From assembly GCA_021819035.1 (NCBI GenBank), contig JAKASL010000001.1, forward strand, positions 310,001 through 374,000: a stretch of 64,000 nucleotides of DNA, given 5' to 3'. Of the stretch, positions 11,327-17,665 are shown piece after piece. Every line of letters starts with the position of its first letter. The first letter of the stretch is position 1. The notes below the pieces were generated by a model. It was not told the DNA's origin. It did not search any database and worked only from the letters and a program-made list of their open reading frames with translations. This DNA comes from an archaeon. GTDB taxonomy: Archaea > Thermoproteota > Nitrososphaeria > Nitrososphaerales > Gagatemarchaeaceae. A program made the translations under genes and the position numbers.

Positions 11327-12244
11327 ATGGAGTTCACCGTCCCGCTCGGGTCGCCGTTCAGCCTGGAGCACACCCTCGTCAGCGGGCAGACGTTCAGGTG
11401 GGCGAAGAGGGGGGACTGGTGGTACGGGGTCGTGGGCGGCGGTGTCCTCAAGGCCAAGCAGGAGGGGGACTTGCTGAAGTGCGAGTCAAGCTCGGACGCT
11501 TTCAGGGCTCCAGGGGTGTCGGACTACTTCAGGCTGGGGGACGACCTGGAGCACGTGCTGGCGTCGATCTCCAAGGACGCGACGATCACCCGGGCCGTCG
11601 AGCGCTTCTACGGGCTCAGGCTCATCAGGCAGGACAGGTGGGAGTGCTTGGCGTCGTTCGTCCTTGCGACCAACGCGAACATACCGCGCATAGCGAAGAT
11701 GGTGGAGGCTGTCTGCAGGAGGTACGGCGAGCCCTTTGAGTTCGAGGGTGAGACCTACCACTCGTTCCCTGGCCCCGATGCCCTGGCGAGGACGGGGGCC
11801 GCGGACCTCCGCGGGTGCGGCCTCGGGTACAGGGCCCCCTTCCTCAAGAAGGTCGCCTCTTCGGTCGCGAGAGGGGATGTCGACTTCGATGCGGTAACCT
11901 CGCTCCCCTACGAGGAGGCTCGGGGCCTCCTCCTCAAGGAGCTCTTCGGGGAGAAGGTCCTCCTCGGCGTGGGGCCGAAGGTGGCCGACTGCGTCCTCCT
12001 CTATTCTTGCGGCAAAGACGAGGCCTTCCCCATAGACGTGTGGATAGCCAGGGCAGTGGCCCGGTCGTACCCTCGGTTGATGGCGAAGGGGCTTAGGGAG
12101 AGGCTGAAGCGCGACGGCAAGGCGAGGCTTGGAGCCGGGGAGTACGCGAGGCTTTCAGCCTCCCTCAGGAGGCACTTCGGCAGGTATGCAGGCTACGCCC
12201 AGCAGTATCTGTACATGGCGGCTCGGTCAGAGGAATTGAGCTAA
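11327..12244 (+). CDS. ogg: 8-oxoguanine DNA glycosylase/AP lyase, OGG1 type
   Basis: 305 residues. It has the OGG N-terminal domain with Q-T-F-R-W (21-25) and a helix-hairpin-helix GPD domain: G-V-G-P-K-V-A-D-C around K218 (catalytic Lys) and F-P-I-D-V-W with D237 (catalytic Asp). It removes oxidised guanine from DNA and can cut the strand. The complete two-domain form resembles bacterial and eukaryotic OGG1 more than the shorter archaeal Ogg2. Last bases overlap the convergent eL13 gene. Confidence 0.92.
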   Translation: MEFTVPLGSPFSLEHTLVSGQTFRWAKRGDWWYGVVGGGVLKAKQEGDLLKCESSSDAFRAPGVSDYFRLGDDLEHVLASISKDATITRAVERFYGLRLIRQDRWECLASFVLATNANIPRIAKMVEAVCRRYGEPFEFEGETYHSFPGPDALARTGAADLRGCGLGYRAPFLKKVASSVARGDVDFDAVTSLPYEEARGLLLKELFGEKVLLGVGPKVADCVLLYSCGKDEAFPIDVWIARAVARSYPRLMAKGLRERLKRDGKARLGAGEYARLSASLRRHFGRYAGYAQQYLYMAARSEELS

Positions 12245-12780
12245 GGCCCGGGCTTTCGTCGGGTCTTTCTCGCAGGCTTGGCCACCTTGCCCGCGCTCTT
12301 CGCTCCTTTCTTCGCAGAGCCCTCAGGCTCCTTGGCCGCAGGGCCAGCGTGCTCAAGCTGACCGTCAGACTTGCGCTCGGCCTTCGCGGCGGCCGCCTGG
12401 CTGGACGCCCACCCCTTCAGGGCGCCCACGTTGGCTTCCACGACGCTCCCTCTCCTGTAGTCGACCCTGGCCCCCCACCTCGCCGCTGTCGCCGCGGAGA
12501 GCCCGGCGCTCGATAGCTCCCCGAACGAAAAGCCTCTCCCATGCCTGGAGATGGTCCCTCCTCGGTGCCTGGCCAGGACAGTGGCGACGGGGGCTCTCCC
12601 CACTGGTCCTGCGGCCTTCGCCCTCGGTCTCTCCGCCGATCTGTGGACCGCCCCCTCCACCCTCTTGACTTCCTTCTTGACCTCTTTCTCGACGGCCTTC
12701 TCTACCTTCTCCGCATCCTCGACCACCTCCGCCTTGGTCCCCTTCTTCTTGGCCTTGCTCTTCCGGGGGGTTGAACTCAA
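12241..12780 (-). CDS. rpl13e: Ribosomal protein eL13 with long basic extensions
   Basis: 179 residues from a TTG at 12780. The core, about 45 residues starting G-R-G-F-S-F-G-E-L and continuing through A-G-L, V-D-Y-R-R-G-S-V and N-V-G-A-L-K, matches archaeal/eukaryotic L13e of the large subunit. It is flanked by a Lys/Glu/Val-rich N-terminal stretch and a Lys/Ala-rich C-terminal tail, so it is longer than typical archaeal eL13. The box at 12807-12816 (minus strand) is 31 nt from the chosen TTG; the longer frame to 12855 is not supported. Confidence 0.8.
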   Translation of the reverse strand: MSSTPRKSKAKKKGTKAEVVEDAEKVEKAVEKEVKKEVKRVEGAVHRSAERPRAKAAGPVGRAPVATVLARHRGGTISRHGRGFSFGELSSAGLSAATAARWGARVDYRRGSVVEANVGALKGWASSQAAAAKAERKSDGQLEHAGPAAKEPEGSAKKGAKSAGKVAKPARKTRRKPGP

Positions 12781-12806
12781 CGCTTTTTCAGCCCGTCCGG
12801 GCGGGG

Positions 12807-12816
12807 GATAAAACGG
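12807..12816 (-). promoter_or_regulatory. TATA-like box for eL13
   Basis: On the minus strand it reads CCGTTTTATC, centred about 31 nt before the TTG at 12780, and it decides that start. Confidence 0.5.
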
Positions 12817-12861
12817 TTCCCTGAGCACGACTTCCACGCTAGGCCTCCCCGACACGTCTAG

Positions 12862-13016: not shown

Positions 13017-13173
13017 TCCCGCGGGCAGGATTGTCAGGTGCCAAGGCACCTTTTGAGCCTGCGACACTCCGGTCACTGTGGCCTGAGTAGGCTGGACGGG
13101 TCAGCCGATGGCCGACCTCTACAGCCGGAAGCTGTTGGCCCCTTTAGGGACTACCAGGCTGAGCTACCGCGGG
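13017..13173 (-). tRNA. tRNA-Tyr (GTA) with three inferred introns
   Basis: Read on the minus strand, the ends form a perfect 7-bp acceptor stem (CCCGCGG at 13173-13167 with CCGCGGG at 13024-13018) followed by discriminator A. The C1-G72 pair and A73 are the archaeal tRNA-Tyr identity pattern. The anticodon stem TCCGG/CCGGA encloses the loop CTGTAGA, anticodon GTA. Three inserts must be removed for a cloverleaf: 13134-13150 (17 nt, D arm), 13074-13118 (45 nt, after position 37, the usual site) and about 13032-13052 (21 nt, T loop, containing a 7-bp hairpin AGGTGCC/GGCACCT). The exons then join to a 74-nt tRNA with D stem GCTC/GAGC and T stem GCAGG/CCTGC. CCA is not encoded. Exact splice points could shift by a base or two. 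Confidence 0.88.
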
Positions 13174-13194
13174 ACGGTCGCCCGGGGCGCGGAG

Positions 13195-13205
13195 ATTTCT
13201 TAAGG
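13195..13205 (-). promoter_or_regulatory. TATA-like box for tRNA-Tyr
   Basis: CCTTAAGAAAT on the minus strand, centred 27 nt before the tRNA 5' end at 13173, the usual archaeal spacing. Confidence 0.6.
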
Positions 13206-13265
13206 GTTTCAATGGCCTAGCGCGCTTGGCTGTCTAGGCGCGCGCGAGCAAGACCAAAATACAGA

Positions 13266-16459: not shown

Positions 16460-16543
16460 TAAAATCTGGAAAGCCAGCCGCTCCCGAACGTAGTTAAGAC
16501 TTTCTAGGTGCGGGGTCGCGTCCTACACCGGCTCGCCGTCAAC

Positions 16544-16552
16544 TGTTTTAAC
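16544..16552 (+). promoter_or_regulatory. TATA-like box for tyrS
   Basis: TGTTTTAAC is centred 29 nt before the ATG at 16577 and rules against the longer frame from 16508. Confidence 0.5.
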
Positions 16553-16576
16553 CGGAGCCGCAGAGACCGGGCGCAG

Positions 16577-17665
16577 ATGGACCTGGAATCGAGGATAGAG
16601 CTTGTCAAGGGGGTGGGGGAGGAGGTGATCACGGAGGAGGAGCTGAGGGCTCTGCTGCAGACAAACGAGCACCCGACGGCCTACGACGGTTTCGAGCCGA
16701 GCGGACTTGCCCACCTCCCGTTCGGCGTCCTCCGGCCGATACTCGTCGAGGACATGCTGAAGGCAGGGGTCCGCATGAAGCTCTGGATCGCCGACTGGTT
16801 CGCCTGGGTCAACAACAAGATGGGGGGCGACCTGGACCGCATCCAGGACGTCGGCCGCTACTTCGTCGAGGTGTGGAAGGCAGCCGGCGTCGACATGAGC
16901 AAGGTCGACGTCCTCTGGACCAGCGACGCCGTCAAGAACGAGGAGTACTGGAAGAAGGTGATAACGGTCGCCCAGAATTTCACGCTCGCCAGGGCCCAGC
17001 GGGCCCTGACCATCGCAGGGAGGACGTCCAAGGAGGCCGTGCAGGCCGCCCAGCTCCTCTATCCGATGATGCAGGTGGCGGACATCTTCTGGCTGGACGT
17101 CGACATCTGCCAGCTGGGGCTGGACCAGAGGCGCGCCGACATCTTGGCGAGGGAGGTCGCGGAGAAGCTGAGGTGGAAGAAGCCGGTGGCGGTGCACCAC
17201 CACATGCTCATCGGGCTCCAGGGGAAGAAAGAGCCCGAGGGGTTCGACGAGAACGGGGCCCTTGACTCGGAGATAGCGAGCAAGATGAGCAAGAGCAAGC
17301 CCGAGAGCTCCATCTACGTCCACGACGGGTCTGAAGCGATAACCCGCAAGCTGAACTCGGCATACTGCCCCCCCAGGGTGGCTGCGGGCAACGCGCTGAT
17401 GGACTACTCGAAGTACATCGTCTTCAAGAAGCTGAAGGCCCTCAGGATAGAGCGTCCCGACAAGTACGGGGGGACGGTGGAGTTCGCCACCTATCAGGAG
17501 CTCGAGAGGGCATACCTTTCCGGCAAGCTGCACCCGGCCGACCTCAAGAAGGGGGTGGCCGTCGCCCTCGACGCCATAATCGCCCCCATCCGAGACCACT
17601 TCGAGACGGACCCCGCGGCCCGCAGGCTCTACGAGTCGGTGAAGGCCGCCGAGACCACAAGGTAG
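16577..17665 (+). CDS. tyrS: Tyrosyl-tRNA synthetase, archaeal type
   Basis: 362 residues, class I synthetase. Marks include Y-D-G-F-E-P-S-G near residue 40, L-G-L-D-Q-R-R near 185 and an intact K-M-S-K-S near 240. The HIGH-equivalent reads H-L-P-F-G, which departs from the usual H-x-G-H spelling. The helices and length match the archaeal/eukaryotic TyrRS core without added domains. Its cognate tRNA-Tyr gene lies about 3.4 kb upstream on the other strand. The frame extends upstream to 16508, but box spacing and homology begin at the ATG. Confidence 0.9.
   Translation: MDLESRIELVKGVGEEVITEEELRALLQTNEHPTAYDGFEPSGLAHLPFGVLRPILVEDMLKAGVRMKLWIADWFAWVNNKMGGDLDRIQDVGRYFVEVWKAAGVDMSKVDVLWTSDAVKNEEYWKKVITVAQNFTLARAQRALTIAGRTSKEAVQAAQLLYPMMQVADIFWLDVDICQLGLDQRRADILAREVAEKLRWKKPVAVHHHMLIGLQGKKEPEGFDENGALDSEIASKMSKSKPESSIYVHDGSEAITRKLNSAYCPPRVAAGNALMDYSKYIVFKKLKALRIERPDKYGGTVEFATYQELERAYLSGKLHPADLKKGVAVALDAIIAPIRDHFETDPAARRLYESVKAAETTR

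Follow-up and report, generated by a model that had tools for sequence, protein, structure and literature searches.

The question raised by this locus is whether a tRNA gene interrupted three times can be the working tRNA-Tyr of its genome, and what its introns may be kept for. In the window, by which we mean the whole 64,000-nt stretch of DNA analysed, sequence and homologue comparison place a tRNA-Tyr(GTA) gene at positions 13,017-13,173. The sequence-only reading had located it correctly without naming a strand; the gene lies on the minus strand, with C1 at 13,173 and the discriminator A73 at 13,017. The 157-nt precursor comprises exon 1 (tRNA positions 1-22; 13,151-13,173), a D-arm intron of 17 nt at 22/23 (13,134-13,150), exon 2 (positions 23-37; 13,119-13,133), which holds the anticodon GTA, the canonical intron of 45 nt at 37/38 (13,074-13,118), exon 3 (positions 38-59; 13,052-13,073), a T-loop intron of 21 nt at 59/60 (13,031-13,051) and exon 4 (positions 60-73; 13,017-13,030). 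Removing 17, 45 and 21 nt leaves 74 nt, and the resulting cloverleaf is completely paired (acceptor stem 7/7, D-stem 4/4, anticodon stem 5/5, T-stem 5/5) and has C1-G72, just as had been read from the letters. The T-loop intron is indeed a hairpin, of 6 bp with a 4-nt loop and not of 7 bp as first described. The precursor fold lay 3.35 SD below those of 200 shuffles of its own sequence. A ribosomal protein L13e-like gene (12,241-12,855, minus strand) adjoins the locus, and a TyrRS gene lies 3.3 kb away (16,508-17,665, plus strand).

Checking each junction for a bulge-helix-bulge (BHB) motif revealed one at all three. The central helices are complete (4/4) at 22/23 (UGGU/GCCA, bulges AG/U and AC/A) and at 37/38 (CUGU/ACAG, bulges AG/A and UG/A), both with 3-nt bulges, and relaxed at 59/60 (CUCA/UGAC, 3/4 pairs). 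Among the aligned homologues described below, the 37/38 motif is 4/4 in 23/23 genes and the D-arm motif in 19 of the 21 genes with that intron (three via UGGU/ACCA; G013 and G016 have 3/4), while the T-loop motif is 4/4 in 7 and 3/4 in 13 of the 20 genes with the intron. Shuffled versions of the window introns reach the observed scores at frequencies of 0.084 (22/23), 0.05 (37/38) and 0.141 (59/60), with a product of 5.8e-4. Taken alone this is moderate support, and the case rests on comparison with relatives. From the window sequence alone the exon junctions can slip by at least one base; it is the relatives that set them at 22/23, 37/38 and 59/60. Copies without a given intron show the same exon sequence there and so provide direct evidence for the junctions. 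The homologue alignment, the BHB motifs and the relatives without inserts thus bear out the interpretation of one canonical, one D-arm and one T-loop intron.

Standard searches overlook this gene, as had been predicted. ARAGORN reported no tRNA gene in the window, Rfam gave no match there at gathering score, and a search of the source genome with RF00005 (E<=10) returned 29 places, among which the tRNA-Tyr gene was absent. A covariance model built from 11 homologues of the gene (R1) did detect the window locus, at E=1.7e-38, and gave matches with E<=0.1 in 245 of the 250 genomes of the order, some of the weak ones being other tRNAs. Another intact tRNA-Tyr elsewhere in the genome, which the sequence-only reading had named, together with a silent locus here, as evidence that would speak against the gene, was not found in the source assembly (1.67 Mb, 3 contigs, 88.2% complete); at this completeness, a second tRNA-Tyr might still lie in the missing part. 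The tRNA-Tyr detected in G005, a single-contig genome of the genus listed as 100% complete, carries these three introns too. Judged by eye, seven other source-genome loci (L002, L011, L015, L022, L024, L025 and L026) also seem to have inserts in the D-arm, at 37/38 or in the variable region, which gives the impression of a genome generally rich in introns. L002, called tRNA-Ser(GCT) by ARAGORN, has the sequence of a tRNA-Ile(GAT) carrying an insert in its D-loop, and L165 of G005 reads as tRNA-Phe(GAA) with inserts at 28/29 and 59/60.

The alignment comprised 23 homologues, namely the window gene and those of 22 genomes of its family. Exons are near-invariant across it, and the D-arm and T-loop inserts drift in sequence and length. 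In a covariation analysis of 11 sequences, 98.7% of cells were paired under the proposed structure and 12 pairs had changed on both sides, compared with 6.2 on average over 500 shuffles, a test that favours the proposed structure because this was drawn from the window's own row of the same alignment. In these 11 sequences all five pairs of the T-intron helix are double-changed somewhere, and changes in the T-stem are compensated across the intron.

We examined 31 genomes from the genus, and 27 had a gene readable in full; G030, where the gene lies at a contig end, and G004, G011 and G018, without a clear gene, were excluded. All three introns are present in 21 of the 27. The T-loop intron is missing in four (G001, G002, G015 and G027), the D-arm intron in one (G020) and both in one more (G022). 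The statement that three introns in one tRNA are uncommon stands against the literature but fails within the genus. Placed on a tree of UbiA, which is encoded next to the tRNA gene (29 rows; modest support, with 7/23 inner branches starred), the absences are scattered and require at least five changes, counted by hand. TyrRS was rejected as a species tree, as the TyrRS of family f9 is distant (27-31% identity) and that of f6 (G041), at 63% identity, is nearer than most of the order; neither fits the taxonomy, which makes gene transfer in f9 and f6 likely from these sequences.

Upstream of the gene, at -37 to -20 (13,193-13,210, minus strand), lies a promoter-like box, GAAACCCTTAAGAAATCT. Its core, CTTAAGAAATC, is found about 30 nt upstream and is exact in 19 of the 23 loci, being altered in L044, L049, L051 and L059; TTAAGA occurs at -30 to -32 in 22/23, and the flanking sequence has diverged. 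A profile search located two PF01974 splicing-endonuclease loci in the source genome. By eye, one of the proteins keeps the Tyr, His and Lys that we take to be the catalytic residues and the other lacks the His, suggesting a two-subunit endonuclease of the alpha-beta type. Such two-subunit enzymes are linked to noncanonical introns in the accessible text of PMC4090602 and PMC4033280.

From the anatomy, conservation, covariation, absence of inserts in relatives, motifs, promoter-like box and endonuclease genes we infer, with high confidence, that this is a working and probably the sole tRNA-Tyr gene. It would be transcribed with introns at 22/23, 37/38 and 59/60, each flagged by a BHB motif; the alpha-beta type endonuclease would excise them and the exons would then be ligated. 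A decaying pseudogene that has gathered insertions, with the real tRNA-Tyr in sequence that the assembly lacks, would suit both the 88.2% completeness and the failure of standard finders, yet exons that stay near-invariant and stems that stay intact over 23 homologues, the compensatory changes, the conserved promoter-like box and the same three introns in the tRNA-Tyr of the complete genome G005 make this very improbable. It is hardly more plausible that only the canonical intron is removed and the D-arm and T-loop inserts stay as extra hairpins. The weak T-loop motif in the source genome (3/4) fits retention, against which stand the strict BHB at 22/23, the complete T-loop motif in 7 of the 20 aligned genes with the intron, and the fact that the inserts drift in sequence and are absent from some close relatives; a T-loop insert left in place should moreover disrupt the elbow contact. 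Finally, four exons that follow one another in the normal sequence within 157 nt, all on the same strand and behind a single promoter-like box, leave next to no probability for a split or permuted tRNA in place of cis introns, even though such genes share the BHB motif and occur in Archaea, according to the accessible text of PMC3218864.

The mature sequence departs from the usual in one T-loop base. T54 is the usual, non-defining base of the tRNA T-loop, and the window gene has C54 (13,057). C54 is present in 47 and T54 in 65 of the 112 distinct tRNA-Tyr precursors that we collected from the order, and it also occurs in a T-loop without an intron (L044). Carriers include L143, the 14 precursors of family f8 and the majority of those of f1, also where the T-loop intron is lacking; L165, the tRNA-Phe reading mentioned above, has C54 again. 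The BHB of some relatives allows C54 to pair with a G in the T-loop intron, so this base may be a remnant of that intron.

These 112 precursors were picked from model and pattern hits and are not a census; all were found via a D-loop pattern, GCTCAGCYTGGYAG, which limits the D-loop variety among them. An automatic parse assigned one intron to 28, two to 35, three to 40, four to 6 and five to 3 precursors. Re-splitting L182, L183 and L058 by hand, each from three to four introns, changed the counts to 37 with three, 9 with four and 3 with five. For G091, G065, G040, G055 and G035, the T-arm or variable-region junctions were set by hand, and all nine strings of this hand split matched the DNA; for G039 (L235), whose parse resembles that of G065, the automatic count was kept. 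For G035 (L058), a BHB intron at 43/44 was rejected because the motif is 1/4, so its count of four is doubtful; its T-loop intron scores 2/4 in the hand split and 3/4 in the other parse.

Five introns were found in G105 and G091 of family f14 (9/10, 22/23, 37/38, 53/54 and 59/60) and in G046 of family f11 (9/10, 30/31, 37/38, 53/54 and 59/60), giving precursors of 215, 198 and 200 nt, respectively, for a 74-nt tRNA. BHB central helices are 4/4 at five of five junctions in G105 and G091; in G046, three are 4/4 and two 3/4. The introns at 53/54 and 59/60 enclose a micro-exon of 6 nt in the T-loop, which would need precise or ordered splicing. The accessible text of PMC8450103, PMC4390854, PMC4033280, PMC3293823 and PMC3218864 gives three introns as the archaeal maximum per tRNA. 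No archaeal tRNA with more than three was found in the literature searched, and a query on four-intron tRNA genes and archaea returned, by title, papers on organelles or eukaryotes. Multi-intron genes described in the accessible parts of PMC4390854 and PMC8450103 include tRNA-Glu of Pyrobaculum calidifontis and tRNA-Pro of P. islandicum. As far as these sources go, the Thermoproteales genes resemble ours in having up to three introns, canonical and noncanonical, together with an alpha-beta type endonuclease. The present case differs in being a tRNA-Tyr of Nitrososphaerales whose relatives reach four and five introns, with the 6-nt T-loop micro-exon. The three-intron tRNA-Tyr is therefore of a known kind in a new lineage, and its relatives exceed the published maximum that we found.

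Of the three introns, the canonical one is shared with the simplest genes of the order: 28 of the 112 precursors have the 37/38 intron alone. This intron contains, in 111/112 precursors, 5 nt complementary (G-U allowed) to the D-loop of the same tRNA from G15 to G18; the one exception, G035 (L058), had been given an incorrect intron boundary for this comparison, and CAGGC is present there too. Shuffling the intron ends 200 times gave a D-loop complement in a mean of 17 and a maximum of 29 of the 112. In the window gene the partners are G15-C16-C17-U17a-G18 (13,155-13,159) and the CAGGC element of the intron (13,081-13,085). Over 111 rows, position 17 covaries with the intron (C17-G in 89, U17-A in 21 and U17-G in 1), positions 17a and 18 vary only to G-U pairs, and 15 and 16 are unchanged within the order. 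In genus g27 of family f9, the C/G, U/G and U/A states occur in G099, G058 and G088. Elsewhere in the phylum, we considered 40 loci from as many genomes, taken from the top of the list given by a model trained on the 37/38 intron. The pairing is present in most of them, in G486 with U17-A and in G414 with A15-U and U17-A, and is absent in G255, G429 and G462. By family and genus labels, which is not a phylogenetic test, there were at least three or four independent changes.

A hairpin internal to the intron (GCCU/AGGC) was rejected as the reason for the conserved element, being intact in only 75/111 precursors; among the 22 precursors with U17, 17 disrupt the hairpin but retain the D-loop pairing. 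This comparison sought the element by complementarity, so that its 111/111 for the D-loop pairing is so by construction, and the independent test is the count of complements in 111/112 precursors given above. We consider it very likely from these sequence comparisons that the CAGGC element pairs with the D-loop in the precursor. Formation of the tRNA elbow would then have to wait for removal of the 37/38 intron. No report of an intron pairing with the D-loop was found in the literature searched.

The D-loop complement sits in a wider layout, with a CAG upstream and an ACA downstream of it in 111/112 precursors. In the window gene, the upstream element is CAGCC (13,090-13,094), which is complementary to exon positions 30-34 and is so paired in the minimum-energy fold, where GGCUG (30-34) is bound and U35 lies in an internal loop; the ACA (13,077-13,079) follows 15 nt past the start of CAGCC and doubles as part of the BHB strand ACAG. 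CAGCC, the exact complement of 30-34, is found in 82/111 precursors. Among the 112, the distance from CAG to ACA is 15 nt in 94, 14 nt in 6, 16 nt in 2 and 13 nt in 9, with none in 1; the nine 13-nt cases are the first ACA of ACACA-like ends, and choosing the CAG/ACA pair nearest to 15 gives 15 nt in 103, 14 nt in 6, 16 nt in 2 and none in 1. The total of 15 nt is kept while the inner spacings shift (8+2 in 54 and 9+1 in 40 precursors). Measured from CAG, where we placed the edge of the pocket, the ACA thus lies 14-16 nt away, the pocket-to-ACA distance that the accessible text of PMC7991803, PMC4652768 and PMC6313347 gives for archaeal H/ACA RNAs.

This raises the possibility, in our view a doubtful one, that the 37/38 intron makes the precursor its own H/ACA-type guide for pseudouridine 35, acting in cis before splicing. 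CAGGC and the D-loop would form the lower stem, and CAGCC would pair with exon 30-34 as the 3' guide arm, leaving U35 in a pocket with the ACA at 14-16 nt. Neither the anticodon stem nor the BHB motif could form while 30-34 is paired in this way, so modification would have to precede splicing. An excised intron acting in trans as an H/ACA RNA was rejected, because there is no lower stem without the D-loop. That stem has 5 bp, or 6 with G19 in 105/111, which is below the 7-9 bp of canonical H/ACA motifs as given in the accessible part of PMC4652768. No K-turn or K-loop was obvious by eye above the pocket, and no free 5' guide arm was found in cis. The source genome encodes Cbf5 (one PF08068 match above cut-off).

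It is on balance probable that the elements of the intron act solely as a scaffold on which the precursor folds for the endonuclease, and guide no modification. Consistent with this, the ACA falls within the BHB strand ACAG in 82/111 precursors, and the source genome contains a gene of the TruD family (PF01142), the family of aPus7, which is known to make pseudouridine 35, so that motif and gene are both present there. In the other 29 of the 111, however, the ACA and the BHB strand do not overlap (24) or do so by a single base (5), and the distance to CAG is still kept; these 29 have the BHB strand as well, with 4/4 pairs in 27 and 3/4 in 2. The scaffold also does not predict how aPus7 is distributed. 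PF01142 was present in 50/61 genomes, the source genome included, and in a second survey in 30/58 overall, with 0/17 in further genomes of families f9, f13, f14 and f17. Of the 40 genomes outside the order, 28 have the motif with ACA (17 with and 11 without an aPus7-family gene), and all 12 without the full motif have the gene, in G290 as a partial match (Fisher one-sided p=0.009, on related and partly incomplete genomes). A cis guide would explain both the 12 motif-less genomes with the gene and the 11 gene-less genomes with the motif.

Two further observations concern these genes. In G016, G020, G023, G011 and G034 the TruD/aPus7 match is interrupted by a gap of a few to tens of bases, which reflects an insertion, a frameshift or a split. 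Outside the order, the 37/38 introns of five loci without the ACA motif (L322, L325, L332, L335 and L336) carry an ATGAG block, most of them with CAGC near the 3' end.

Known guides offer two points of comparison. The accessible text of PMC11408192 describes an archaeal pre-tRNA-Trp whose intron encodes a box C/D guide; by analogy, the putative tRNA-Tyr guide would likewise be a canonical intron doubling as modification guide for its own tRNA, with H/ACA-like elements in place of C/D ones and, as its target in cis, U35. In Sulfolobus and relatives, an H/ACA sRNA guides pseudouridine 35 of pre-tRNA-Tyr, as stated in the accessible parts of PMC7991803, PMC4652768 and PMC6313347. The target and the guide-to-ACA distance of 14-16 nt are the same, but there the guide is a separate RNA, whereas here it would be the target's own intron, with the D-loop as partner of the lower stem. 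Within the order, the single-intron tRNA-Tyr genes have the same 37/38 intron, CAG...ACA layout and D-loop complement as the window gene, which differs from them by its two extra introns.

If splicing is confirmed, the ceiling of introns per archaeal tRNA would rise from three, the maximum in the literature searched, to five, outside the Thermoproteales. Sister genomes either have or cleanly lack each intron, so that hypotheses on how BHB introns are gained and lost can be tested directly. The D-loop pairing offers a concrete explanation, accessible to experiment, of why the canonical intron has persisted so long, be it structural control of maturation or guided pseudouridylation. Should the second be true, a cis guide would reside in the canonical tRNA-Tyr intron across much of the phylum, and this would explain why that intron is kept while the others come and go.
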